Shown: positions 17,635-30,722 of the stretch, one piece after another
How positions within the stretch are numbered: position 1 is the stretch's first letter
How the letters are laid out: every line of letters starts with the position of its first letter
Origin: a virus
Strand: one strand, 5' to 3'
IMG/VR virus record: IMGVR_UViG_3300048020_000148
Coordinates: 1-30,722 of that record
Length of the DNA stretch: 30,722 bases
Translations under genes and position numbers: made by a program
The notes under the pieces: model-generated
The model's database searches: none
Told to the model about the DNA's origin: nothing
What the model saw: only the letters and a program-made list of their open reading frames with translations

Positions 17635-17963
17635 TGATTCATTTCCTTTTTTATTTGTTTTGTGTGGTGATGGTTTCTGACCTTCCTTAACGCTTGCTTT
17701 TCGATCTGATCGATCCGTTGATGGGTCAGTCCCGTAAATTCTGCGATTTCACGGAGCGAGTAAGAATGGTTTTCGGGTTGTTGGACAACCATGACGGAAA
17801 GAAGATGATCCGTGATCCAAGAATCGATCGTCTTGTCTGGAACGCTCCTCCCTTCCAACCAATTCAAGCAAGTAAAAAAAGAGACATCGCAATCCTCCGC
17901 AAGTTCTCGACTCGCTTCTCTTAATGGTTGTCCGTTCGGTGCTTTTTTTATTGCGGTTTTCAT
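17631..17963 (-). CDS. Regulator with sigma-70 region-4-like helix-turn-helix
   Basis: A 110-residue protein with two DNA-binding-like parts. Residues about 15-45 resemble a Cro/XRE-type helix-turn-helix (REASRELAEDCDVSFFTCLNWLEGRSVP). Residues 68-97 closely follow sigma-70 region 4: YSLREIAEFTGLTHQRIDQI then EKQALRKVRN, with the characteristic T-x-x-R-I-x-Q-I-E-x-x-A-L-x-K-V-R order. Region 2 is missing, so it is unlikely to be a complete sigma factor. It could be an activator that touches host RNA polymerase for late genes, or a replication-linked DNA-binding protein. It overlaps the initiator gene and the DnaC-like gene by ATGA on both sides. Confidence 0.65.
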   Translation of the reverse strand: MKTAIKKAPNGQPLREASRELAEDCDVSFFTCLNWLEGRSVPDKTIDSWITDHLLSVMVVQQPENHSYSLREIAEFTGLTHQRIDQIEKQALRKVRNHHHTKQIKKEMNQ

Positions 17964-18712
17964 AGTGACAATGGGTCGGAATAATTCCGATCGGTGATGG
18001 GTTGCTTTGCTCCGTTTTTATACTCTGGGAAAAATACTCCTTGCCATTGTGCCTTAATCGAGTCCTTGAGTGCTTGAATCGTCGAATCGAGTCCCCACTT
18101 TTTGAACTCTTTGAATTTCGCCTTTGTTGCAGTTGCTCCAAGTTTCCGATGCTTTGCCTCTTTCCTCATCTGCAAGTACTCTTCCCATACCTCCTTGAAG
18201 ATCGGATCGGGAAATGGGAGGTCTTCTTCCTTCCCCTTAACAATCCCCTTATTATCCTTATCCTTATCCTTATCCTTATATAGTACCCTTGAGGAAGGGT
18301 TACCCGACCCTTGACCAACCCTTGAGCTACCCTTGACCAACCCTTGACCAACCCTTGAGCAACCCTTGACCAACCCTTGGTCATCCATCTCATGTCCATG
18401 ATGTTCAAGTGCTTTTAAAATTGGCTTATGATAGTTTGAGGTCGAAGAAAGTTCCGTCCCGAATTGAAACTTGATGAATTTCGGGATCAAAATCTTGTCT
18501 CCAAGATCGACAATCCGATCCCCTAAGTCCTCAACAAGTGCTTTTATTGAAATTCCGATCCCCGTTTCGAACTGAAACTTTTTCTCAAACTTTTCCCATG
18601 TTCCAGAGTGGTCGCAATTATCCAACAAGTACAACCAGAAGACCTTCGCTTTCGGATCGAGATCGACGAACCAAGGGTCTGACCATTTTGTCGTTTCCGT
18701 GTATCTTTTCAT
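17960..18712 (-). CDS. O-like replication initiator containing origin repeats
   Basis: A 250-residue protein. The N-terminal domain (about residues 1-110: RYTETTKWSDPWFVDLDPKAK, FWLYLLDNCDHSGTWEKFEK, ISIKALVEDLGDRIVDLGDK) is a winged-helix phage replication-initiation domain of the lambda O/DnaD-like group. Residues 113-140 are repetitive (QGLVKGCSRVG, QGLVKGSSRVG, QGSG), because the gene carries seven 11-bp iterons at 18307..18383; a KDKDKDKD run follows from a 6-bp repeat. The C-terminal domain (EVWEEYLQMRKEAKHRKLGATATKAKFKEF, QALKDSIKAQWQGVFFPEYKN) resembles the partner-binding domains of phage initiators. By analogy with lambda O, the protein should bind the iterons and recruit the DnaC-like loader. 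No Shine-Dalgarno sequence is present before the ATG. Confidence 0.75.
   Translation of the reverse strand: MKRYTETTKWSDPWFVDLDPKAKVFWLYLLDNCDHSGTWEKFEKKFQFETGIGISIKALVEDLGDRIVDLGDKILIPKFIKFQFGTELSSTSNYHKPILKALEHHGHEMDDQGLVKGCSRVGQGLVKGSSRVGQGSGNPSSRVLYKDKDKDKDNKGIVKGKEEDLPFPDPIFKEVWEEYLQMRKEAKHRKLGATATKAKFKEFKKWGLDSTIQALKDSIKAQWQGVFFPEYKNGAKQPITDRNYSDPLSL
18255..18278 (-). repeat. Hexanucleotide repeat next to iterons
   Basis: Four tandem copies of TCCTTA, encoding the KD run of the initiator. The array lies about 30 bases to the left of the iterons, beside TATATAG, and is A/T-rich, so it could be the DNA-unwinding side of the origin. It may instead simply encode a flexible linker. Confidence 0.55.
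18307..18383. repeat. Seven 11-bp iterons, probable replication origin
   Basis: A perfect-phase tandem array of seven 11-bp units ACCCTTGACCA (variants end in GCT, GCA; the last is ACCCTTGGTCA), 77 bp in total. To the left an inverted repeat ACCCTT-GAGG-AAGGGT (18285..18300) uses the same core. The unit is one helical turn and not a multiple of three, so coding constraint cannot explain its regularity. Position inside the initiator gene parallels the lambda origin inside gene O. Confidence 0.75.
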
Positions 18713-19668: not shown

Positions 19669-20336
19669 AAGATACAATTGAGAACTTTTTTTGCTAGTTT
19701 GTAGGTGATTCGAATATCGTTTTGAAGATACTCTTCCGCTCGATCTGGTTCGTCTTCCAATAACTTCCAGAAGTATTTGCCCGACCCGTTTTTCCCTTCG
19801 ATTCCGAATGCTTTGCACATCCGATCAAGTGAGATGGTCGCCTTGAAATCTCCTGCTTGCCAAATTTCCATTAAGTCTTTCCAGAATAATTGAGACCAAT
19901 ATCGAGTCACGGGGATCACCTCTTTCGGAACTTTGACCCCTGCGATTAATGATCTCCGAAGGAGGAACGGAAGGTCGAAATTGTTTGAATTAAAACCGAC
20001 CCACAATGCATCTCCCTCGCAATAATCATCCAAGACCATTGACCAGAATTTCGGGAGCATTTCTTCTTCCGATCCGAAGAGCAATCTTTCGTCGTCTCCC
20101 TCCTTGATTCCGATCGCAACGATGAATCCATATTCTGCGGACAATGCTCCTCGATCGACTTTATCCTCGATGAAGTTTTCTTTTGCTTTTGCGATCTTCT
20201 CCATTGCTTTCTCAAGACCTAGATTTCCCGTCTTCACGGAGTTTTCGTCAAAGTCTCCTGCAAGCTCGATGATTCGTTCTCTTGGAAGTGGACTCGTTTC
20301 GATGTCAAATGCGATGATCCTTTTGTCCCGATTCAT
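19665..20336 (-). CDS. DEDDy-type 3'-5' exonuclease domain protein
   Basis: A 223-residue protein starting at the ATG at 20336, chosen because AAAGGAGGAGGAGGT precedes it and it overlaps the ERF stop (ATGA). Motif I is IIAFDIETS (D11, E13). Motif II appears as LWVGFNSNNFDLPFLLRRS. Motif III is EEYLQNDIRITYKLAKKV, a Y-x-x-x-D arrangement of the DEDDy class used by DNA polymerase proofreading domains. The length and absence of a polymerase domain indicate a stand-alone exonuclease, likely providing 3'-end processing for the adjacent ERF annealing protein. Lambda-type 5'-3' exonucleases differ in fold. Confidence 0.82.
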   Translation of the reverse strand: MNRDKRIIAFDIETSPLPRERIIELAGDFDENSVKTGNLGLEKAMEKIAKAKENFIEDKVDRGALSAEYGFIVAIGIKEGDDERLLFGSEEEMLPKFWSMVLDDYCEGDALWVGFNSNNFDLPFLLRRSLIAGVKVPKEVIPVTRYWSQLFWKDLMEIWQAGDFKATISLDRMCKAFGIEGKNGSGKYFWKLLEDEPDRAEEYLQNDIRITYKLAKKVLNCIL

Positions 20337-20956
20337 ACCTCCTCCTCCTTTTGCTTCTGCTTCAACCAATCCTCGACCTTGTCTTTCATTCCGTCGATTC
20401 CATATCCCGTCACTCGCTTCGCTAATGGCTCGGCTAATTTTGCGACATCAATATCACCTTTCGAGATTGATTTGATGAACTCCGTCGCATGAGGAATCTG
20501 AGTGATGATCGAATATGCTCGCTCTTGAAGAGTGACCAAAGGACTTCTTCTCGGCAATGATTGCGATGACTTTGTCGATGTCATTCCCATTGCGTCCGAT
20601 CCGTCGTCATCCTCTGGACAAACTCCGACAAGTGCCGACAAAGAATATCTTCTTGCGTAAGTAATTGCCGACCCCATCGAGTGCCAATCTTTGATCCATT
20701 GAAGCGGAAGTCTTGAATCAATCCTTTCCGTTCCTTTCATTAATGATGAGCGGAGAAAGAGCGTTCCATCTTCAAGAGTCTCAAAGACTTGAACGACTGC
20801 GATTCCGTTTTCTGAAAGAGCATCTCGGCAAGCTTCATATACCGAGGCTAAGTCGGCATATTTATTCTTGAGAAATTTATTCTCTTTCGTTGCTTTTGCT
20901 CCACCGATGCTCGCTTGTGCTTTCGCTAGTGAGTCGGCAAGATTTCCTTGTTCCAT
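20333..20956 (-). CDS. erf: ERF-family ssDNA annealing protein
   Basis: A 207-residue protein with the ERF signature: LADSLAKAQASIGGAKATKE, NKYADLASVYEACRDALSENGIAVVQ, and the later GSAITYARRYSLSALVGVCPEDDDG. ERF proteins form rings on single-stranded DNA and anneal complementary strands; in temperate phages they support recombination and genome circularisation or concatemer formation. The C-terminal part (about residues 125-207) is variable and ends in a Lys/Glu helix. The start at 20956 lies inside the upstream gene, whose sequence carries a copy of the leader motif (20972..20985). It is the first recognisable enzyme of the recombination cassette. Confidence 0.88.
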   Translation of the reverse strand: MEQGNLADSLAKAQASIGGAKATKENKFLKNKYADLASVYEACRDALSENGIAVVQVFETLEDGTLFLRSSLMKGTERIDSRLPLQWIKDWHSMGSAITYARRYSLSALVGVCPEDDDGSDAMGMTSTKSSQSLPRRSPLVTLQERAYSIITQIPHATEFIKSISKGDIDVAKLAEPLAKRVTGYGIDGMKDKVEDWLKQKQKEEEV

Positions 20957-21144
20957 TTATTTTCCTTTTGTTCCGTGGGTTGTGAGAGACGGATCAAGTC
21001 CGTCATTAAATATGCGAAGACGAATTTTCTCTTGTCGTCTCGTTTCAAACGGATCGCAGGGATGGAATTCCCGTCGGATAATTCCGACATGACCTCAAGC
21101 GACTTTTTTTCTACTTGCGTCAGTTTCATTCCCATCCCCCACAT
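20926..21144 (-). CDS. Uncharacterised small protein upstream of ERF
   Basis: A 72-residue protein; starts at 21144, 21135 and 21129 are all ATG and in frame, and the last (MKLTQVEKKSLEVMSELSDG) has the best G-rich upstream sequence. The middle (SIPAIRLKRDDKRKFVFAYLMTDLIRLSQ) looks helical and amphipathic. It overlaps the RHH gene before it and the ERF gene after it, in different frames, and its coding sequence contains the leader motif used by ERF. No function can be assigned; the position suggests a small regulator or recombination accessory protein. Confidence 0.5.
   Translation of the reverse strand: MWGMGMKLTQVEKKSLEVMSELSDGNSIPAIRLKRDDKRKFVFAYLMTDLIRLSQPTEQKENKWNKEILPTH
20972..20985 (-). 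promoter_or_regulatory. Leader motif copy before ERF gene
   Basis: Minus strand CACAACCCACGGA, 16 bases before the ERF ATG and inside the previous coding region, where it encodes part of SQPTEQ. The spacing to the start is a little longer than in other copies because of an extra AAAAGG. Confidence 0.55.
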
Positions 21145-21304
21145 CCTTGGTTTTTTGTTGGAATACTTCTGGGTAACATTTCGCCAATGCTTCCCGAATA
21201 ATCCAAGATTCCGATCGATCCAGATCGAATGATTTTTGCTGAATAAACCTCGCCTCGGTTTCAGTCATTCTGATCTGCTTTTGTTTTGTCAATTTTCCCG
21301 CCAT
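21095..21304 (-). CDS. Ribbon-helix-helix regulator, minus strand
   Basis: A 69-residue protein from the ATG at 21304. The core reads KQIRMTETEARFIQQKSFDL, then DRSESWIIREALAKCYPEV: one strand and two helices with the S-E-x-x-I-R-E-A-L pattern of Arc/CopG-type regulators. The promoter TTGACA-N16-TAAACA lies at 21313..21340, so the transcript would start only a few bases before the ATG and be nearly leaderless. An upstream in-frame ATG at 21364 would run through the promoter and is unlikely. Together with the plus-strand RHH gene it flanks a palindrome-rich spacer, like the divergent repressors of temperate phages. The operon downstream starts with the 72-residue gene and ERF. Confidence 0.7.
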   Translation of the reverse strand: MAGKLTKQKQIRMTETEARFIQQKSFDLDRSESWIIREALAKCYPEVFQQKTKDVGDGNETDASRKKVA

Positions 21305-21312
21305 GAAATTGA

Positions 21313-21340
21313 TGTTTAAAGTTGCGTCACCTATTGTCAA
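21313..21340 (-). promoter_or_regulatory. Leftward promoter for RHH/recombination operon
   Basis: TTGACA, a 16-base spacer, TAAACA, the same design as the early promoters at 24.3, 25.2, 26.4 and 27.1 kb. The -35 box overlaps the palindrome GTCAAC-TTTCT-GTTGAC (21336..21352), a likely operator. The predicted start is about 2-3 bases before the ATG at 21304. Confidence 0.6.
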
Positions 21341-21352
21341 CTTTCTGTTGAC

Positions 21353-21495
21353 GAATGCAGACAAGTGGTGACAAAATAAATAATAAAATTTGCTAAATTC
21401 CTATAATTGTTTAGTGAGTATAAATTGTAAACAATCCCTTAAATAAAAAAAAACACATATATAATGTTTTAATTTCGTCATTTCTGACAAAAAAT
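21353..21495. promoter_or_regulatory. Divergent control region between two RHH genes
   Basis: A very A/T-rich spacer. It holds the inverted repeat ATTGTTTA-N14-TAAACAAT (21406..21435), a consensus -10 box TATAAT on the plus strand (21460..21465, no good -35) and GTCA-TTTC-TGAC (21475..21486). The last is similar to the palindrome at 21336..21352. These look like operators for one or both flanking regulators. Confidence 0.5.
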
Positions 21496-21705
21496 ATGAA
21501 AAAAGATTCTCGATATTCCATCCGCTTGCCTTCAGATGATGCCGAGATGATCGAATCGATTGCCGAAAAGGAGTCCGTTGAGAAATCAATGGTCGTCCGT
21601 TTCGCCATTACATCCACGATGAAACTCATCAAAGTCAAAGACATTCCAGAAAGTTTAATTTCTCCCGAACTCGCTTTTTTAAGAAAGTCCATTAGTTCAA
21701 AGTAA
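21496..21705 (+). CDS. Ribbon-helix-helix repressor candidate, plus strand
   Basis: The only convincing plus-strand gene. The 69-residue product begins MKKDSRYSIRLPSDDAEMIE and continues SIAEKESVEKSMVVRFAITST: strand (YSIRLP), helix, turn, helix, the Arc/CopG-type RHH fold. The second half (MKLIKVKDIPESLISPELAFL) is uncharacterised. It is convergent with the integrase gene (14-bp overlap at the 3' ends) and divergent from the other RHH gene across a palindrome-rich spacer. A lone rightward regulator facing a leftward lytic operon is the usual arrangement of a lysogeny repressor or Mnt/Arc-type switch. A TATAAT box precedes it; no Shine-Dalgarno sequence is visible. Confidence 0.7.
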   Translation: MKKDSRYSIRLPSDDAEMIESIAEKESVEKSMVVRFAITSTMKLIKVKDIPESLISPELAFLRKSISSK

Positions 21706-23203
21706 ATAAATCAGAGACCTCAAAATCGTTGGTCTCGATTATGACTTCTTTGTCAGTCGTCAAGGTTGCTTTGTACTTGACCCCATTGACCAATTTGACC
21801 CGAATTGTTCTTTCCCTAAAATCAACGATCAATCCCCCTTTTTGAATGTTCGCTCTCAAAGCTTGATAAATTTGCTCATCAGTTGCCCGTAGAGGGTCGA
21901 GGATCATGCTTTTACCCTTCGAGAGAATCTTTTCACGAATGTCATCCATCTCCCTTTTTTTGTCGCTCTTCTCGGACTCCCGATCGTTCTTTCTTTTGAG
22001 CAATCCTTTGTCTGGGTCGTCCTCCAATAATTCCTCAAGATTTTGAATCTTCTTTTCGAGCTTCCCGATCTCGTCTTCTAACCTTGCAAGTCTTGATTCT
22101 TCGCTTGTCGATTCGGTTTCAACCTTCAGAGCAAGTCGCATTGAGTAAAGAAGGATCGAATCGATTTCTCGTTTGCTCCACAAAGCATTCTCAAATCCGT
22201 GACCGATATGTGCCATTTTCGGGAGGTAAGAATGATTTCCAGAGTTGCGAGTTTTCAAATAAATAGAATCACCCGTCGGATCGGTTGCAATCTTGCGAAG
22301 AAAATTTGTGTAAGTCTTCGACTTGCGTCCTCGGTCGGATGAATTGTTTTTAAGAACTTGTCGAGCTTTTGCGAAAGTTTCTCGATCAATGATTGCAGGA
22401 AAGTGATTCTCGATGTCTCCGTCCTTCGTTTGCAGAGTTCCAATCGGGGAGGGGATTTCAATCAAGGTTTTGATCGTGGATGGATTCCAGACCTTCGCAG
22501 GATTTTTCATTTCTCTCATCATCGTCAGAGTCGGGACTTTTCGATCTGTAAGGTCTCGACCAATACTTGCGATCGTCTCACCTTTTGCGACCCTTTTTAT
22601 GACCTCTTGCACGATACGAACATTGCTTGCAATCAGAGAATATTTCCCGTCGATTGCTCTGATCCATGCAGTCGGTCGGTCGGAATAAATTTTTCCGTTT
22701 CTTGCATCTTCTCTTTTTTTCTCAAATGATTTTTTGATGCGGATCGATTTTGTTTTCGATTCATTATATGCTCTGGACATTGTCACGATCGCAACAATCA
22801 ATCCTCCGAGGTCGTTTAATGAGTCTTTGTCATAGGTTTGACCATCTGCCAAGGTGACGATCTTGATCCCTGCTTCAACGATTGCTTTGAGTTGATTAAG
22901 AGCGGACATGATCTTTTCCCGACTCAACCGATCCAATGACTCGACCAGAAGAAAGACTTCGTCCGTCTCGATCCGATCTGCGAAGCTTGGAGTCTTGATG
23001 AATTCCAAGAAATCTCCGAGGTCTCCTTTACTGACATGATGTGCCTTAAAAGCTGAGAGACCGAAATCGTTAAGTTCTTTTTCGAGGGTGACATCTGGAT
23101 TTCTCTTGAGCCACTCATCTCTCGATGCGTTCTGCCTTCGGAAAGAATCTCCCGACGCTTGGAGCATGGAGGAAAAGCGAAGATAACTAATAGCGATCTT
23201 CAT
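21692..23203 (-). CDS. Large serine recombinase (integrase)
   Basis: A 503-residue large serine recombinase. The resolvase-type N-terminal domain has the catalytic Ser in YLRFSS (S11 or S12), the Q-x-x-x-S-x-x-x-Q-type segment, and LLVESLDRLSRE. The recombinase domain (about residues 165-275) includes IYSDRPTAWIRAIDGKYSLI and VPTLTMMREMKNPAKVWNPS, then TIKTLIEIPSPIGTLQT. A charged coiled coil (about 358-430: LEDEIGKLEKKIQNLEELLE) follows the zinc-ribbon position. The ribbon itself (about 300-345) has no Cys; I see no cysteine anywhere in the protein. It should integrate the phage at an attB/attP pair. No attP was recognised. The start overlaps the preceding stop (ATGA). Confidence 0.9.
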   Translation of the reverse strand: MKIAISYLRFSSMLQASGDSFRRQNASRDEWLKRNPDVTLEKELNDFGLSAFKAHHVSKGDLGDFLEFIKTPSFADRIETDEVFLLVESLDRLSREKIMSALNQLKAIVEAGIKIVTLADGQTYDKDSLNDLGGLIVAIVTMSRAYNESKTKSIRIKKSFEKKREDARNGKIYSDRPTAWIRAIDGKYSLIASNVRIVQEVIKRVAKGETIASIGRDLTDRKVPTLTMMREMKNPAKVWNPSTIKTLIEIPSPIGTLQTKDGDIENHFPAIIDRETFAKARQVLKNNSSDRGRKSKTYTNFLRKIATDPTGDSIYLKTRNSGNHSYLPKMAHIGHGFENALWSKREIDSILLYSMRLALKVETESTSEESRLARLEDEIGKLEKKIQNLEELLEDDPDKGLLKRKNDRESEKSDKKREMDDIREKILSKGKSMILDPLRATDEQIYQALRANIQKGGLIVDFRERTIRVKLVNGVKYKATLTTDKEVIIETNDFEVSDLFTLN

Positions 23204-23409
23204 GAGTTTGTAAAATCTCCGCTCATGTTTCCTTGCAATTCAAATTTCTCAATTCTCCACACTCTTCTCCATGATATTTTTGAACGATCGAGAGTCTTGT
23301 TTGCTTTCTTTTGAAACTCCTTAATATCGTTGCACTCAATTAATTTCGGTCGAATTTTGTTTCCGTCTTGGTCATTGAGAAAATGTAATTTGAAAATGAA
23401 TTGATTCAT
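23200..23409 (-). CDS. Uncharacterised protein upstream of integrase
   Basis: A 69-residue protein starting MNQFIFKLHFLNDQDG at 23409, preceded by AAAGGAGGGGAGATCG; longer starts add only a polar run that duplicates the membrane-peptide frame. The content alternates strand and helix (FIFKLHFLNDQDGNKIRPKL, IKEFQKKANKTLDRSKISWR, VWRIEKFELQGN). The design of two strands, a Lys-rich helix and a final strand resembles the small early proteins at 24.9-25.1 kb. It is coupled to the integrase by an ATGA overlap and to the 36-residue membrane peptide by another. Could be a recombination directionality factor from its place beside the integrase, but no sequence support exists. Confidence 0.55.
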   Translation of the reverse strand: MNQFIFKLHFLNDQDGNKIRPKLIECNDIKEFQKKANKTLDRSKISWRRVWRIEKFELQGNMSGDFTNS

Positions 23410-23516
23410 CGATCTCCCCTCCTTTCGTCGATCTTCCCGACGATCCATAGAAAGATCGGGACGAGGATGAATTGGAATCCTATGAGGATGAGAAAGCTTT
23501 TGTCTAGTTCGCTCAT
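23406..23516 (-). CDS. Single-pass membrane peptide (36 residues)
   Basis: A short gene: MSELDKSFLILIGFQFILVP then IFLWIVGKIDERRGDR. It has one transmembrane helix (about residues 8-27), an acidic N-terminus and a charged C-terminus. The stop overlaps the next ATG (ATGA). A weak ribosome site GGGAAG precedes the start. Its coding end supplies the AAAGGAGG used by the next gene. Role unknown; small membrane peptides in early regions often alter host membrane or superinfection. Confidence 0.5.
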   Translation of the reverse strand: MSELDKSFLILIGFQFILVPIFLWIVGKIDERRGDR

Positions 23517-23520
23517 GGTC

Positions 23521-23757
23521 TTACTTCCCTATGAAAAGAGTTATTCCCTTGCCTTCATTCCATCTCAAAATCATTGCAATGATATTACCACGATCATCAG
23601 TCCAGACATTATTTTCATTCGATCCATAATTTAAGAACTCCGTGCAAGCTTGCATTGCATCGGTTTTGGATACATTGATCGAGCGAGTCATGTCGGTGTA
23701 TAAGTGAATGCTTGCTTTGATTTCTTTTGCGTCTTCAATTGCTTTTTTAAGTATCAT
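23521..23757 (-). CDS. Uncharacterised early protein
   Basis: A 78-residue protein (MILKKAIEDAKEIKASIHLY to ILRWNEGKGITLFIGK). The order helix, strand, helix, two strands looks like a compact alpha/beta fold. The start is preceded by a copy of the leader motif (CTCCGTGGGTTG on the plus strand at 23768..23779) with GGAG as ribosome site. No family recognised. One of a run of small genes between integrase and the first early promoter; such genes commonly encode host-takeover or anti-defence factors. Confidence 0.55.
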   Translation of the reverse strand: MILKKAIEDAKEIKASIHLYTDMTRSINVSKTDAMQACTEFLNYGSNENNVWTDDRGNIIAMILRWNEGKGITLFIGK

Positions 23758-23767
23758 TGTTTTTGTT

Positions 23768-23779
23768 CTCCGTGGGTTG
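23768..23779 (-). promoter_or_regulatory. Leader motif copy
   Basis: Minus strand CAACCCACGGAG, 10 bases before the ATG at 23757. Confidence 0.6.
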
Positions 23780-23785
23780 AGTGAT

Positions 23786-24253
23786 TTATTTTTTTAAGTT
23801 CAAGGAATAATAGGTCTCGGAATATGCGATGTATTGCTCTTCGAAAAATGCGTTCTTCGCATAACGAACGATGACCACAAGATGCTCTCGATTTTGATAA
23901 TCTTGAGTCTGTAATTTCCTTTGAATGCCCCCCATTGCTTGCTCTAAAGATGAATAAACTTTTGTGGTAGCTCGGTGAGATTCGCACATTGAATAAGTGG
24001 ATTGATAATCAAAGTTTTTTGGATTGTTGCGATTTAACATTGCGAACATTTCATCCTCGGAATCTCTGACAAAAATATCTGCAGTTGTTTTTACTGCTTT
24101 CATTCCAAGTCCTTGCTCTGCATTTTTAATGATCTCTAAAGTCTTAAATCCTTCGTTTTGAGTAAGAGTCTTTTTAAGAGAAACCTTAAAAGAATCTTTT
24201 CCTGCAACTCCGACCATTGTTTCGCTTTGTTTGATGATGTTTGAATTTGTCAT
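23786..24253 (-). CDS. Uncharacterised early protein
   Basis: A 155-residue protein with no membrane segment. It contains a strand-rich N-terminal part (DSFKVSLKKTLTQNEGFKTLE), a helix (NAEQGLGMKAVKTTADIFVR), and HRATTKVYSSLEQAMGGIQRKL, ending YAKNAFFEEQYIAYSETYYS. A degenerate leader motif (GTGGGTTTGT, 24261..24270) precedes the ATG but without GGAG. It has its own promoter 51 bases upstream (TTGACA-N16-TAAAGT at 24304..24331). Function unknown. Confidence 0.55.
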   Translation of the reverse strand: MTNSNIIKQSETMVGVAGKDSFKVSLKKTLTQNEGFKTLEIIKNAEQGLGMKAVKTTADIFVRDSEDEMFAMLNRNNPKNFDYQSTYSMCESHRATTKVYSSLEQAMGGIQRKLQTQDYQNREHLVVIVRYAKNAFFEEQYIAYSETYYSLNLKK

Positions 24254-24303
24254 TTTTATTGTGGGTTTGTTAGTGATAATCTATGCGTCAATTTATGAGA
24301 TTC

Positions 24304-24331
24304 ACTTTAGTGGTTTGCCATTAATTGTCAA
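24304..24331 (-). promoter_or_regulatory. Early promoter without palindrome
   Basis: TTGACA, a 16-base spacer, TAAAGT. Same -35, spacing and -10 as the palindrome-bearing promoters, but the spacer sequence is unrelated, so it should escape the regulator of the others. It is in the gap 24254..24387. Confidence 0.6.
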
Positions 24332-24387
24332 GACTATCGTAACAAGTTTTGAAAAGTTTTTTTTACGAATCGCTTGAGTCCCTTTAT

Positions 24388-24612
24388 TTAAGCGGACTTT
24401 AGCGGATTATTTTTTTTTGATTTTTCTTCGATCATCAACTCCATTTTTTGAGTCATCCAATCAATGTCGTTTTTCAATCGATTAATATGGAGTTGATCAA
24501 GTCTCCCCTTATCATGCCTTTCCTGCAATTGATCGAGGTGGAGACTTGCGATATTTAGAAGAGGGATAAAGTCCTCAATCTTATTTTTAAAAAGGTTTTT
24601 TGCGATGCTCAT
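24388..24612 (-). CDS. Uncharacterised helical early protein
   Basis: A 74-residue protein beginning MSIAKNLFKNKIEDFIPLLN, from the ATG at 24612 that follows CACGGAGAAAATAAA. An upstream in-frame start would run through the leader motif. The body is one or two long helices (LLNIASLHLDQLQERHDKGR, LHINRLKNDIDWMTQKMELM) and a Lys-rich tail. Coiled-coil-like; no family recognised. The leader motif copy 24621..24635 decides the start. Confidence 0.55.
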   Translation of the reverse strand: MSIAKNLFKNKIEDFIPLLNIASLHLDQLQERHDKGRLDQLHINRLKNDIDWMTQKMELMIEEKSKKNNPLKSA

Positions 24613-24620
24613 TTTATTTT

Positions 24621-24635
24621 CTCCGTGGGTTGTGA
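24621..24635 (-). promoter_or_regulatory. Leader motif copy
   Basis: Minus strand CACAACCCACGGAG, 8 bases before the ATG at 24612. Best-conserved form, together with the copy at 24866..24882. Confidence 0.65.
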
Positions 24636-24857
24636 TCAAAATGCAGGATCGTAAAAACGATCGATCTTAACTGCTTTGTCATCTCTCAAGACCACAATCC
24701 AGAAATCTCCTTTTCCATCTGGTAAAGATTTTTGCAAAGAAAGCTCAACTCGTTCGCTTGCTATTGACTTCGGAAATCCTCGATCGATTCGATTTTGAAT
24801 TACTTGCTTTCTAAATTTTTTCGCTTCTTTTGAACAATATGTTTTGATCTCTTTCAT
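24636..24857 (-). CDS. Uncharacterised early protein
   Basis: A 73-residue basic protein (MKEIKTYCSKEAKKFRKQVI, GFPKSIASERVELSLQKSLP, GDFWIVVLRDDKAVKIDRFY). It combines a Lys/Arg-rich N-terminal helix with a two-strand C-terminus. Preceded by the leader motif at 24866..24882. The stop codon lies within the next gene's motif. Function unknown. Confidence 0.55.
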   Translation of the reverse strand: MKEIKTYCSKEAKKFRKQVIQNRIDRGFPKSIASERVELSLQKSLPDGKGDFWIVVLRDDKAVKIDRFYDPAF

Positions 24858-24865
24858 TTTATTTT

Positions 24866-24882
24866 CCTCCGTGGGTTGTGAT
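24866..24882 (-). promoter_or_regulatory. Leader motif copy
   Basis: Minus strand CACAACCCACGGAGGA, before the ATG at 24857, with the extended Shine-Dalgarno GGAGGA. The preceding stop codon at 24882 abuts it. Confidence 0.65.
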
Positions 24883-25088
24883 TAAATTTCGTAAATGCAA
24901 CGCTCCGCTTTCATTGTGTAAGATGGATATTGCTCCTTGATTTCTTTGAGGTCTTCTTGATAGTGCCTCCCCTTTAAACGAGCCTTGCAAAGTTTCATTG
25001 CTTGGCTTGCGTTATCCGCATCGACTTGGATGAAACATCCGATGATGAGATTTCCGTTTTCGTAAAAGTTGAGATTGTAGTAGTACAT
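24882..25088 (-). CDS. Uncharacterised early protein
   Basis: A 68-residue protein with the pattern strand, strand, long helix: MYYYNLNFYENGNLIIGCFI and VDADNASQAMKLCKARLKGR, ending YTMKAERCIYEI. The DADNASQAMKLCKARL helix is like the small DNA- or protein-binding modules with D-A-E/D-N-x-x-x-A seen in phage proteins, but no function follows. The leader before it is degenerate (CACAACTCAACAAAATTAATT) and lacks GGAG, so it is probably translated by coupling to the 37-residue gene, whose stop is two bases upstream. Confidence 0.55.
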   Translation of the reverse strand: MYYYNLNFYENGNLIIGCFIQVDADNASQAMKLCKARLKGRHYQEDLKEIKEQYPSYTMKAERCIYEI

Positions 25089-25090
25089 AA

Positions 25091-25204
25091 TTAATTTTGT
25101 TGAGTTGTGATTGTTTCGGTTTCAAGACGACTCTCAACCCACCTCGCAGACTCGAAAATCGAGATCGAAACGAGGAGGATTGTGATGAGTTGTCTTGCTT
25201 TCAT
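25091..25204 (-). CDS. Small hydrophobic peptide (37 residues), leaderless
   Basis: A short gene: MKARQLITILLVSISIFESA, then RWVESRLETETITTQQN. A positively charged start and a hydrophobic stretch make a signal-anchor-like segment. The ATG is only 8 bases from a promoter -10 box (25212..25217), so the mRNA should begin at or within a base or two of the start codon. It ends two bases before the next ATG. Too short for a family assignment. Its proximity to a palindrome-bearing promoter suggests expression in step with the other early genes. Confidence 0.45.
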   Translation of the reverse strand: MKARQLITILLVSISIFESARWVESRLETETITTQQN

Positions 25205-25211
25205 GTTTATA

Positions 25212-25239
25212 GATTTATCATAACTAGTTATGAAGTCAA
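25212..25239 (-). promoter_or_regulatory. Early promoter with palindrome operator
   Basis: TTGACT, a 16-base spacer holding CATAACTAGTTATG (25219..25232), TAAATC. One mismatch each in the -35 and -10 boxes relative to the two stronger copies. Confidence 0.65.
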
Positions 25240-25246
25240 GCTTTCT

Positions 25247-25594
25247 TCAATCTTTTTTCAATTTTTTTTCTTCTCTTGATTTTGCCCGTGCTTTCTGGAG
25301 TTTCGCTTGTTGCTCTGGAGTGATCTTCCGCTTGCTTTTTGCCCCTCCCTTCGCTTGTGCTTGTGCTTTGTACTCTCCGCACTTGTGGTCGATCACGATC
25401 TCATCTCGGACGGGATCAAACATCCTCTGGATTGTGTAGTTGATTGCCTCGATCATGGTTTTTGTGAATCCGAGATTCAGATTTTTTTGATCGGGAGTTG
25501 ATCCCTTGCCCGTGATATCAAAATCAATTTGATAATGATATCCATCGGGAGAGGTTTCGGGATTTGCTTTTGTGATTTTATATTTTGTTTTCAT
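25247..25594 (-). CDS. Uncharacterised basic early protein
   Basis: A 115-residue protein. The N-terminal two thirds are alpha/beta (MKTKYKITKANPETSPDGYH, NLNLGFTKTMIEAINYTIQR, MFDPVRDEIVIDHKCGEYKA). The last 40 residues are highly basic and helical (AQAKGGAKSKRKITPEQQAK, LQKARAKSREEKKLKKD), suggesting nucleic-acid binding. The leader motif at 25603..25618 contains CCTACGGAG. No known family. Confidence 0.55.
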   Translation of the reverse strand: MKTKYKITKANPETSPDGYHYQIDFDITGKGSTPDQKNLNLGFTKTMIEAINYTIQRMFDPVRDEIVIDHKCGEYKAQAQAKGGAKSKRKITPEQQAKLQKARAKSREEKKLKKD

Positions 25595-25602
25595 TGTGCT
25601 TT

Positions 25603-25618
25603 TCTCCGTAGGTTATGG
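25603..25618 (-). promoter_or_regulatory. Leader motif copy, diverged
   Basis: Minus strand CCATAACCTACGGAGA: two changes from the common form, GGAG kept, 8 bases before the ATG at 25594. Confidence 0.5.
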
Positions 25619-25622
25619 GGTC

Positions 25623-26165
25623 TCAAGCGACCCCTTTTAATTTGTGGTAGAGGTGAGAATCATCGGTCATCAACCACCCGAACTTATTCATCAATTTTCT
25701 TGATTCTCCAGACTTCGAGAAGGGGAAAGGAATGTCCATGCCTCCGTCAGAATATAAAGTAGTTTCAGAAAAATTCATATTAACGAACTGCCTTTTCATT
25801 TGCCGAGGAGTATAGAAAGAAATATTTTCGGTACTGACAAACTCCTCTCCTTTTGCTTCTGCTTTTAATTGCTCCATTGATTGATCAAATGATTGATCTG
25901 AAATAATCCGAAAGAGTCCAGAATCACTCATCGAAGAGAAGGTCGGTTCAAAGTGATGGAGAAAACTTGCTCCTTCTTTTGCCTTAAAGATGTAATAAAC
26001 GAGACCATCAATCAAGACCCATTCTTTGACCTCTGAGACCTTCTTTGCGAATGCGGACTTGCCGAGATATTCTTCGGCATTCTTTAAACGCTCCTGCTCC
26101 TTGGTTGAAGCTTGAGCGAATACTTGTTCAAATTTTGTAATTCCTCTTGTGATTTGTAATTTCAT
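25623..26165 (-). CDS. Uncharacterised early protein
   Basis: A 180-residue protein, the largest of the early unknowns. The N-terminal part is helical (ITKFEQVFAQASTKEQERLK, NAEEYLGKSAFAKKVSEVKE), followed by strands (WVLIDGLVYYIFKAKEGASF) and a C-terminal half with SDQSFDQSMEQLKAEAKGEE and FYTPRQMKRQFVNMNFSETT. No motif, signal or membrane segment. The leader motif at 26174..26191 precedes it. Confidence 0.55.
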   Translation of the reverse strand: MKLQITRGITKFEQVFAQASTKEQERLKNAEEYLGKSAFAKKVSEVKEWVLIDGLVYYIFKAKEGASFLHHFEPTFSSMSDSGLFRIISDQSFDQSMEQLKAEAKGEEFVSTENISFYTPRQMKRQFVNMNFSETTLYSDGGMDIPFPFSKSGESRKLMNKFGWLMTDDSHLYHKLKGVA

Positions 26166-26173
26166 TTTTATTT

Positions 26174-26191
26174 TCTCCGTGGGTTTGTGAT
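26174..26191 (-). promoter_or_regulatory. Leader motif copy
   Basis: Minus strand ATCACAAACCCACGGAGA, 8 bases before the ATG at 26165; one inserted A relative to the common form. The stop codon of the previous gene overlaps it. Confidence 0.6.
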
Positions 26192-26400
26192 TAGGAAAGA
26201 ATTTTGATTTTCTTATTTACGATTGCGATGATCTCGCTTTTCAAGTGGGGAAGTTCAGTTCCGATTTTCTCTCCATTGCGAAGAAATTCGGTGACTACTG
26301 AATTCAAGATCATTTCGATTGCATCTTGCTTCTTCGATCCTTCTGCGAATCTGTGGTCGTTTTCAAGTTTGTTGAGTTGGTGTTTAATTGAGTTGATCAT
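26191..26400 (-). CDS. Uncharacterised helical early protein
   Basis: A 69-residue protein made of helices with alternating charge (MINSIKHQLNKLENDHRFAE, GSKKQDAIEMILNSVVTEFL, LPHLKSEIIAIVNKKIKIL). No family recognised. It is the first gene after the promoter at 26442..26469. The leader has GTGGGTT but CACGAAA in place of GGAG, so its Shine-Dalgarno sequence is weak. Confidence 0.5.
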   Translation of the reverse strand: MINSIKHQLNKLENDHRFAEGSKKQDAIEMILNSVVTEFLRNGEKIGTELPHLKSEIIAIVNKKIKILS

Positions 26401-26414
26401 TTTGATTTTTTTTC

Positions 26415-26481
26415 GTGGGTTAATGTGTTAAATATAATTTGACTTTATCATAACTAGTTATGTTGTCAACCCCTAATCAAT
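26415..26481 (-). repeat. Promoter-leader direct repeat, copy A
   Basis: About 66 bp nearly identical to 27094..27161, covering the leader motif, the promoter with its palindrome and upstream sequence. I count about four or five differences. Confidence 0.75.
26442..26469 (-). promoter_or_regulatory. Early promoter with palindrome operator
   Basis: TTGACA, a 16-base spacer containing the perfect 14-bp palindrome CATAACTAGTTATG (26449..26462), TAAAGT. Drives the 69-residue gene and those downstream. Confidence 0.75.
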
Positions 26482-26501
26482 CTTTTTTTAAAAAAGTTTT
26501 T

Positions 26502-26657
26502 TTACTCGTTTTCGAATTCAAGAATCTGCTCGACTAAGTCCCTTGGAGACTCACCCCAGAAGGATTCCGATTTCCATTTGATTGCATAAGGCTCATCATC
26601 GTAGTCCATGAATCTTGCGTTGTCTTGTACAAATTTAACTATTTCGTTTTCGTTCAT
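26502..26657 (-). CDS. Small acidic early protein (51 residues)
   Basis: A short gene with good support: the ATG at 26657 follows CACGGAGGAAATAAA. The peptide begins MNENEIVKFVQDNARFMDYD, then DEPYAIKWKSESFWGESPRD, ending LVEQILEFENE. Acidic and helical, about 25 percent Asp/Glu, which would suit a DNA-mimic or protein inhibitor, though no structure is implied. It ends 33 bases before the promoter at 26442..26469. Confidence 0.55.
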   Translation of the reverse strand: MNENEIVKFVQDNARFMDYDDEPYAIKWKSESFWGESPRDLVEQILEFENE

Positions 26658-26663
26658 TTTATT

Positions 26664-26680
26664 TCCTCCGTGGGTTAATA
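26664..26680 (-). promoter_or_regulatory. Leader motif copy
   Basis: Minus strand TATTAACCCACGGAGGA, before the ATG at 26657; TTAACCCACGGAG replaces CACAACCCACGGAG. Confidence 0.55.
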
Positions 26681-27093: not shown

Positions 27094-27161
27094 GTGGGTT
27101 AATGTGTTAAATATGACTTAACTTTATCATAACTAGTTATGATGTCAACCCCTAATCCAAT
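27094..27161 (-). repeat. Promoter-leader direct repeat, copy B
   Basis: Partner of 26415..26481. The leader here lacks the CGGAG, reading AACCCACTTAATAAAATG. Confidence 0.75.
27121..27148 (-). promoter_or_regulatory. First early promoter with palindrome operator
   Basis: TTGACA, a 16-base spacer with CATAACTAGTTATG (27128..27141), TAAAGT. It is the most upstream promoter of the leftward early region, just after the late terminator. Confidence 0.78.
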
Positions 27162-27902: not shown

Positions 27903-28769
27903 TCAAGTTCTCCTTCTTCGGATCGCATCGTCCCGATCCATTTTCATCAACTCATCGATCTCGGATTCAATTGCTTTTAAATCGAGACCTTTATTTGTCT
28001 CCGAAAAGTGGTCATGGATTCCTTGAACATCTTGTTGATTTTCCTTCCACCCGATAAAATAATTCGAGATTCTCTCTTGAATTTTCAGAGAATAAACCAC
28101 TCCTCTCGGACGAGTGAATCGATGATTCCACCTCAACCAAGGGAGACAAATGTTTCTTGCCCCTGCTCGTCTGGTCTTTTCATGGATATATCCCTCTTCT
28201 CCACCGAATCCAAGAAACAACGGATTGAATCCCTGCCAAGCTTTTTTCCGTTGCATGAAGAGTCCGAGTCCATGAAGAGGGATTTCGAACGGATCGCAAT
28301 TTCGATTCGCTCCTCTTGGCGAGTGTTCCCATGTGCCGAACATCTGGGATCGCCATTCGGGTTTCATGTTGGTGCATCCATTTCCCTTTAATGAATCATA
28401 AACCATCACTCCTCCGAAGAGATCATTTGAAGTCGGGTTGTCATTTGCAAATTTCAAAATCCTCCCGATCGTCTGTGGCTCGATTAAAACATGAGGATCA
28501 AGACAAAGAACCCACTCGGATTCTGCTCGCTGAAAAACGAGATCACGGGTTGCGGTTGATCTCCATTCTTTCTCTGGGAAATACTTTGCCCCGATCTTAT
28601 TTGCGTGATCTCTGGTCGCTCGACCTTCCGCACTTTCTGAATTATTGTCGATGATTAAAAATTCGAGTTGATCCATCCGCTCTTGATTCGCCATTCGGAT
28701 CGCTTGCGTAGTAAAAAAGACCCCATCAAAATCATCGAAGGTCGCCATTCCGATCGTTAATTTTCTCAT
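27903..28769 (-). CDS. Glycosyltransferase, GT-A fold (GT2-like, DxH motif)
   Basis: A 288-residue protein. It begins LTIGMATFDDFDGVFFTTQA and EFLIIDNNSES, the nucleotide-sugar-binding start of family 2 type glycosyltransferases. LCLDPHVLI gives D91-x-H93, in the place of the DxD metal motif. DxH is the form found in mucin-type polypeptide GalNAc-transferases. A second region, FNPLFLGFGGEEGYIHEKTRRAG, resembles the acceptor-side GGEE/E-x-D segment of related enzymes, and the C-terminus is a charged helix. No signal peptide, so it acts in the cytoplasm, where it could modify a virion protein. It overlaps the PD-(D/E)XK gene (ATGA). Confidence 0.78.
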   Translation of the reverse strand: MRKLTIGMATFDDFDGVFFTTQAIRMANQERMDQLEFLIIDNNSESAEGRATRDHANKIGAKYFPEKEWRSTATRDLVFQRAESEWVLCLDPHVLIEPQTIGRILKFANDNPTSNDLFGGVMVYDSLKGNGCTNMKPEWRSQMFGTWEHSPRGANRNCDPFEIPLHGLGLFMQRKKAWQGFNPLFLGFGGEEGYIHEKTRRAGARNICLPWLRWNHRFTRPRGVVYSLKIQERISNYFIGWKENQQDVQGIHDHFSETNKGLDLKAIESEIDELMKMDRDDAIRRRRT

Positions 28770-29832: not shown

Positions 29833-30722
29833 CGACGACCGAAACGGAATTTAGTTGCCATCCCGTTGCATCTTTCGGGTGGGTGGGGACGGATGATTTA
29901 TAATTGTAAGTGCTACCCATGTGCGAGTAAGACAGAAGGGTGGTCGTCCCGTTTCCTCTAGTTAATACCCACCTAATATTGCTTGAAGACTGAGGATTCG
30001 ATTCGATTTTGACTTGAGGTCGTGATGACCCGTTTACCCCCTCATAAATAGGGAAGACATAACCACCACCCATGTCAGTTTCACCGACCTTTGTGAAGGT
30101 AAATGATCCGCTCAAATAATAGGAAGAGGAGGTGACGCAAATTGTTTCGGGTGCTTGCGTGGTGGGTGCTTGCGTGGTCGGTGCAAGCGTTGTTCCATTA
30201 TGGGAAAAAGTTCCGCTTATTGTGGTCACAAAAACATTCGAAACGGGAGTTAATAAATTCACCGAATCTGAAACAATCAAAAGCTCATCTCCTGCACTCA
30301 TCGGGAATTGATACATATTGTACAACCTCCACTTGCCATCAATGAATTTAATCGACCCCCATGATGACGAATACCAATCTTCAGAGTTTGTATTGTTTTT
30401 GACAAAAGTATCAACATAATCATTTCCGCTTTTTGTATATCCAAAATATGTATGACTCGGAATCGCTTGAACTGCACTTCCCGACAAATCAAAACTATGC
30501 GGAACGAAGGCGAGAGTTGTAGTGGGTGCTTGTGTAGTCGGTGCTTGCGTAGTGGGTGCTTGCGTGGTGGGTGCTTGCGTGGTGGGTGCTTGTGTGGTGG
30601 GTGCTTGTGTGGTGGGTGCTTGTGTGGTGGGTGCAATATAAAGCTCAGTCCTAACTAAATATTGATTGTGGCTCGACCAAATTACTGACCCGTTAGAACG
30701 AAGATATCTTTTCCCTCCACTT
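29819..30722 (-). CDS. Tail fibre protein with TTQAP repeats, C-terminal part, open at window edge
   Basis: 301 codons open to the right edge with no start in the window; position 30722 is the last base of a codon that would be completed by the GC at positions 2-1. The sequence begins SGGKRYLRSNGS, then LYIAPTTQAP, seven PTTQA units, PTTTLA, a domain of about 100 residues (HSFDLSGSAVQAIPSHTYFG, EDWYSSSWGSIKFIDGKWRL), a second short linker (TTLAPTTQAPTTQAPE), and a C-terminal beta-type domain (SSYYLSGSFTFTKVGETDMG, GGYVFPIYEGVNGSSRPQVK, IRWVLTRGNGTTTLL, ATGWQLNSVSVVDGSC). A modular adhesion protein of the tail tip; receptor binding is inferred. Confidence 0.7.
   Translation of the reverse strand, partial: SGGKRYLRSNGSVIWSSHNQYLVRTELYIAPTTQAPTTQAPTTQAPTTQAPTTQAPTTQAPTTQAPTTTLAFVPHSFDLSGSAVQAIPSHTYFGYTKSGNDYVDTFVKNNTNSEDWYSSSWGSIKFIDGKWRLYNMYQFPMSAGDELLIVSDSVNLLTPVSNVFVTTISGTFSHNGTTLAPTTQAPTTQAPETICVTSSSYYLSGSFTFTKVGETDMGGGYVFPIYEGVNGSSRPQVKIESNPQSSSNIRWVLTRGNGTTTLLSYSHMGSTYNYKSSVPTHPKDATGWQLNSVSVVDGSC
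30518..30633 (-). repeat. 15-bp tandem repeat coding PTTQA
   Basis: Seven or so 15-bp units on the minus strand (GCACCCACCACACAA and near-identical variants) encode a run of APTTQ. The unit is divisible by three, so expansions or losses would be in frame. Confidence 0.75.

Follow-up and report, generated by a model that had tools for sequence, protein, structure and literature searches.

Why do so many early genes of one phage carry the same short sequence directly before their start codons, and is that sequence anything other than a ribosome binding site? The window, by which we mean the whole stretch of DNA that was analysed, is a complete IMG/VR virus record (30,722 bases, linear, G+C content 42.6%) whose minus strand encodes nearly all of its genes. 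Matches from PHROG and Pfam searches make a temperate tailed phage the very probable source: they include a tape measure protein, a portal, a terminase, a DnaC-like helicase loader, an O-like replication protein, an exonuclease, an annealing protein of the Erf type, and a large integrase of the serine family. When the integrase, Erf, portal, and terminase were compared to named phages, all matches were below 60% identity and were scattered across phyla, and no relative of the phage was found in genome scans with terminase and portal queries. No known RNA family or tRNA was found in the window. The gene starts discussed here are computational calls.

A preliminary description of this locus reported a motif of 12–14 bases, ending in GGAG, before at least seven early starts (20956, 23757, 24612, 24857, 25594, 26165, and 26657) and degraded forms before four others. 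All seven named starts do match the 14-mer CACAACCCACGGAG with at most three mismatches. There are 12 such matches in the window versus 1.35 ± 1.23 in 100 dinucleotide shuffles (the largest count was 7). The repeat itself holds up, but its outline needs to be redrawn: the exact 14-mer occurs only twice (Table 1), the nearly invariant unit across the aligned sites is AACCCAC, and GGAA takes the place of GGAG at the site of start 20956. The aligned sites read TCAC-AACCCAC-GGAG, with an information content of 10.5 bits for the core versus 3.2 bits for the GGAG block, which is present at six of the 10 sites and missing at four (starts 24253, 26400, and 27085, plus 20956). The four degraded sites are best read as three with an intact AACCCAC and no GGAG (24253, 26400, and 27085) together with 25088 (AACTCAAC). 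Conservation beyond the ribosome binding site, which had also been claimed, turns out to be stronger than was proposed, as GGAG is the less conserved block, lacking at three starts and also from the relative G002 (discussed below).

On the minus (coding) strand, all nine copies of AACCCAC lie 7–18 nt upstream of a called early-gene start (the probability of this placement at random is about 6 × 10−14), and there are no copies elsewhere on that strand of the window. The tenth site (start 25594) reads AACCTAC. Base composition does not account for AACCCAC at starts: once permutations of the heptamer that overlap with the motif itself are set aside, none of the others occurs near a start. Among the sites checked across the window, none was at a structural gene, the integrase, or the lone plus-strand ORF.

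Table 1. Motif sites and promoter-like sequences in the window.
Feature	Position	Strand	Remarks
Site of start 20956 (Erf-like gene 20333-20956)	20971..20984	-	CACAACCCACGGAA; core 20975-20981; GGAA, not GGAG
Separate AAAAGGAAAA after the motif, start 20956		-	extra element
AACCCACGGAG upstream of start 23757 (78 aa ORF)	23768..23778	-	entire linker 23758-23785
AACCCAC without GGAG, 7 nt from start 24253 (155 aa ORF)	24261..24267	-	downstream of promoter
Exact CACAACCCACGGAG upstream of start 24612	24621..24634	-	
Exact CACAACCCACGGAG upstream of start 24857	24867..24880	-	
Variant AACCTACGGAG upstream of start 25594	25604..25614	-	
AACCCACGGAG upstream of start 26165	26175..26185	-	
AACCCAC without GGAG, 14 nt from start 26400	26415..26421	-	downstream of promoter
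AACCCACGGAG upstream of start 26657	26666..26676	-	
AACCCAC without GGAG, 8 nt from start 27085	27094..27100	-	downstream of promoter
Promoter-like TTGACA-N16-TAAAGT, gene 24253	24304..24331	-	consensus match; without palindrome
Promoter-like TTGACA-N16-TAAAGT with palindrome CATAACTAGTTATG, gene 26400	26442..26469	-	ESAS-like
Promoter-like TTGACA-N16-TAAAGT with palindrome CATAACTAGTTATG, gene 27085	27121..27148	-	ESAS-like
Promoter unit with spacer palindrome CATAACTAGTTATG, gene 25204	25204..25236	-	third palindrome copy

The sites differ in what surrounds the core. At the six internal cistrons (23757, 24612, 24857, 25594, 26165, and 26657), the gene is joined to the preceding one by a linker of 23–28 nt, typically with the layout stop-(A)TCACAACCCACGGAGAAAATAAA-ATG; the most regular linkers read stop-(A)TCAC-AACCCAC-GGAG-AAAATAAA-ATG. 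The three starts without GGAG (24253, 26400, and 27085) coincide exactly with the genes that follow the three TTGACA-N16-TAAAGT promoters of the window. (A search of the window for TTGACA-N15..18-TAnAnT gave only three matches, all of this form, and looser promoter-like matches were not more frequent than in shuffled sequence.) From consensus spacing, which predicts transcription to begin near 24297, 26435, and 27114, we infer that the core of these promoter-proximal genes falls in the 5′ UTR.

We also observed three promoter units, almost identical to each other, that contain the palindrome (Table 1). The palindromes sit in the promoter spacer, the units belong to a family of 88-nt repeats (86% and 60% identity), and the palindromes are probably operators of one regulator. 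The third copy precedes gene 25204 (ORF 25097-25204), which is without the motif; the unit there would yield an almost leaderless mRNA.

The explanation that we favor, with a probability of roughly 55%, is that the AACCCAC repeats are a start-associated translation-initiation element that works at the RNA level and is shared among early genes of a single uncultured temperate phage. The core lies in an unstructured leader 7–18 nt before the AUG, followed in operon-internal cistrons by the Shine-Dalgarno sequence GGAG and then an A-rich spacer, and standing without GGAG in genes directly behind a promoter. Action on the mRNA is suggested by the short distance to the AUG and, in the three promoter-proximal cases, by the position downstream of the predicted transcription start. 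Recognition of the core would be specific and in trans. It could be read by an RNA-binding protein, of either phage or host origin, or by the 30S subunit during initiation, and could be an enhancer or standby site or else an operator that shuts early genes off. In this way, the early operons would all be set to the same level or timing. What points to an initiation element is that the core is found at early starts, is kept without GGAG, is kept in the relatives G002 and L196, and lies in leaders with little structure. Against it, the core-to-ATG spacing varies more than expected of a rigid ribosome contact, and the uniform linkers are also compatible with gene shuffling. A regulator site, an RNA element, and a recombination seed, the roles suggested in the preliminary description, are not separable by sequence alone.

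The predicted structure of the leaders narrows the second of these roles. The mean minimum free energy was −6.2 kcal/mol for motif leaders versus −13.0 kcal/mol for other starts of the same phage (p = 0.003), and accessibility was 0.72 versus 0.54 (p = 0.0006). As the leaders are unusually unstructured, a hairpin-type RNA element is disfavored, and a single-strand recognition site fits. The low structure follows in part, and may follow entirely, from composition (A-rich and G-poor).

Two relatives only cover an early region, G002 and L196; the close relatives L006, L012, and L013 span the late region only. G002 (27.5 kb, 53.6% G+C) has 67% identity in the portal, 45% in Erf, and 56% in the exonuclease. 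It has ACCCAC upstream of three early starts (GACCCACCAAAAATG, AACCCACGCTATG, and AACCCACGAATG), and GGAG in none of them. Three of its seven coding-strand copies of ACCCAC are near starts (p = 5 × 10−4; 2/38 for permutations). The distance from the core to the ATG is 2 to 5 nt in G002 versus 7 to 18 nt in the window, and the two have the core alone in common, with no shared stretch of seed length. The Erf site of G002 is a weak witness, because the upstream ORF is homologous in G002 and has the motif in the same reading frame as in the window (QPTE / KPTN), so that protein constraint may explain the motif. The small homologous ORFs (window 20926-21144 and L011:11962-12183) overlap the Erf start by ~20–30 nt in both phages, and the motif site in the window lies in the 3′ end of ORF 20926-21144. 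The motif does lie inside another gene there, as had been noted, but given the homologous frame this is weak evidence for its conservation.

L196 is a 7 kb contig that contains a homologue of gene 24253 (57–59% amino acid identity). In the leader of this gene, 19 of the 20 bases adjoining the ATG agree with the window, versus 13 of 23 fourfold sites (Fisher p = 0.005). The next cistron of L196 has AACCCACGGAG upstream, and its protein is not homologous to the window's counterpart at the same place in the order. Because L196 was found by a search with the motif pattern, its second motif does not count as independent; the 24253 leader does, as it has no GGAG and falls outside the search pattern. 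Conservation of GGAG alone, for which a check in homologous genomes had been proposed, is not what we found: both G002 and L196 keep the core. The motif was not found at starts in L041 and L123, which are relatives in the exonuclease and Erf. Separately, we observed that L196 (reverse complement, 1140-2880) places another sequence of its own, AAGAAAGGAA(A)CTAGC, directly before the ATG of about three genes; early regions of this kind may commonly have start-associated leaders. (Database matches of the 24253 protein itself were weak and corresponded to a stretch inside terminases, and we take them to be spurious.)

The main rival to an initiation element, although we consider it unlikely, is that the near-identical linkers of 23–28 nt are short homology seeds for the gain, loss, or shuffling of small early genes as cassettes. 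Their identity would then be maintained by gene exchange, for which the phage has an Erf-type annealing protein encoded in the same region, and not by regulation through the core. This would account for the six internal-cistron linkers being nearly identical from stop to ATG, for L196 having this linker ahead of an unrelated gene at the corresponding place in the order, and for the duplicated 88-nt promoter-leader unit. It would not account for the core being kept despite different flanks and the loss of GGAG, for an orthologous leader that is conserved above the gene's own synonymous sites, or for G002, which has the core without any stretch long enough to be a seed. The short core-to-ATG distance is also left unexplained. 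The two roles may coexist.

A bolder form of the initiation reading, which we think doubtful, is that AACCCAC would be a phage-specific signal independent of the Shine-Dalgarno sequence: a phage-encoded or hijacked host RNA-binding factor would recruit the 30S subunit to all early mRNAs, or would later block it there. If so, the promoter-proximal copies without GGAG would depend wholly on this factor.

It is improbable that these are just ordinary strong ribosome-binding regions, in which A/C-rich unstructured DNA, GGAG, and an A-rich spacer were selected for high expression and AACCCAC is not read specifically. The lack of structure in the leaders fits, as does the frequent occurrence of the GGAGAAAATAAAATG half of the linker elsewhere in phages and plasmids. 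(Among named phages and plasmids, a search with the entire linker gave no near matches, and many of the top matches span that half only.) But composition does not predict the heptamer, and GGAG is less conserved than the core and is absent at three starts; in a plain Shine-Dalgarno motif, the complementary part would be the conserved part, but here it has 3.2 bits versus 10.5.

More improbable still is a site in double-stranded DNA at which a phage repressor stops elongation into the early genes in the lysogen. The model would be the stoperators of cluster A mycobacteriophages, which are DNA sites of the immunity repressor spread across the genome (PMC9283540). As with the stoperators, we see a multi-copy asymmetric phage motif with an orientation; here the orientation is single, the copies are in the early region only, where intergenic gaps are short, and the phage is temperate, with an integrase. 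Unlike the stoperators (PMC9283540), every coding-strand copy in the window is tied to a start codon, with none in mid-intergenic positions or in late genes, and the palindrome is a likelier operator at the promoters.

Finally, it is very improbable that GGAG in the early leaders, where it does occur, is the target of an endoribonuclease that turns early mRNAs off, as with RegB of phage T4, which acts on GGAG: GGAG is missing at four of 10 sites (24253, 26400, 27085, and 20956), including all of the promoter-proximal ones, AACCCAC is the conserved part, and the early proteins scanned gave no match resembling RegB.

If the repeats are an initiation element, do they belong to a known family? The likeness to the start-associated sequences (SAS) of cluster K mycobacteriophages, which the preliminary description pointed to, is apt. 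These are 13-bp repeats (5′-GGGATAGGAGCCC; consensus from PMC3203893 and PMC12699233) that lie before non-structural starts in one orientation and contain AGGAG (PMC3203893). About half of them have an upstream inverted repeat and are termed ESAS (PMC3203893), later described as containing SigA-like promoters, with an ill-defined role in cluster K (PMC11373665). The window shares with SAS a multi-copy asymmetric motif, in one orientation and immediately upstream of ATG starts, that is limited to non-structural genes, is conserved beyond the Shine-Dalgarno sequence, and precedes genes of different families (PMC3203893). It also shares with ESAS a subset of motif genes (26400 and 27085) with a promoter and an inverted repeat (PMC3203893, PMC11373665), a likeness that the preliminary description did not include. 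In contrast to SAS, the sequence is unrelated (no agreement with the GGGATAGGAGCCC consensus at up to two mismatches), the 7-base core at the 10 sites excludes the Shine-Dalgarno sequence and survives without it, and internal sites are in gaps of 23–28 nt, whereas SAS favor gaps of >50 bp (PMC3203893). Unlike ESAS, which have an imperfect 17-bp repeat, the window has a perfect short palindrome inside the promoter spacer; its third copy is at a gene without the motif (25204), and the 24253 promoter has no palindrome. The motif is SAS/ESAS-like in layout but, judged by its sequence, Shine-Dalgarno content, and intergenic spacing, is not a member.

Other phage groups have start-linked motifs of their own. 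Microbacterium phages of cluster EF have GGGAAAGGACCCC, a G-rich motif in ten copies that is positioned as a ribosome binding site, and the cluster EC phage Quhwah has repeats 22–30 bp upstream of starts (PMC7302621). The window resembles these as another independent phage group with its own repeated start-linked motif, in ten copies as in EF, but its core is A/C only and is upstream of, or without, a Shine-Dalgarno sequence (PMC7302621). The function of start-linked motifs in these phage groups is stated to be unclear (PMC3203893, PMC11373665, PMC7302621).

Descriptions of start-associated sequences in actinobacteriophages go back to 2011, and their function was never settled. The present case has a different sequence and falls outside of the described clusters; its conserved element is distinct from the Shine-Dalgarno sequence and survives the loss of the latter. 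This separability makes it directly testable whether such motifs do more than good ribosome sites do. If confirmed, it would point to a general strategy in which phages tag their early mRNAs with a common translational address.

We considered whether the motif is widespread among viruses. A scan for AACCCACGGAG-NAAA-ATG gave 76 stretches, but with one or a few copies per whole record, and we rejected this possibility; a stricter pattern had zero matches, and the other viral records matched by the pattern did not show AACCCACGG in multiple copies. Among the loci examined from the scan, L196 alone has a homologous early gene. We also rejected two potential pairing partners. AACCCAC complements positions 1419-1425 of E. 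coli 16S rRNA (helix 44), but exact 16S complements exist as well for 6 of the heptamer's 35 permutations. Because the match is not above chance and this helix is buried, we do not take it as evidence. Similarly, GTGGGTT, the exact complement of the core, occurs twice on minus-strand transcripts, which is not above chance for a phage antisense RNA; both copies (25136-25142, in ORF 25097-25204, and 28509-28515) are inside ORFs.

Several other features of the window were observed. Structure prediction for two early proteins gave mean pLDDT values of 45 and 42. The single plus-strand ORF (21496-21705, 69 aa) resembles, by eye, a ribbon-helix-helix protein and adjoins the serine integrase (21692-23203) and a divergent region rich in TGTC/GACA; it is a candidate lysogeny regulator. 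Short tandem repeats (15-nt and 21/27-nt units) are found close to both ends of the record (30518-30634 and 1413-1565), possibly in tail or fibre genes. An 11-bp unit, ACCCTTGACCA, is repeated 6.6 times at 18307-18379, within the gene for the O-like replication initiator (17960-18712), and these repeats are likely to be origin iterons.
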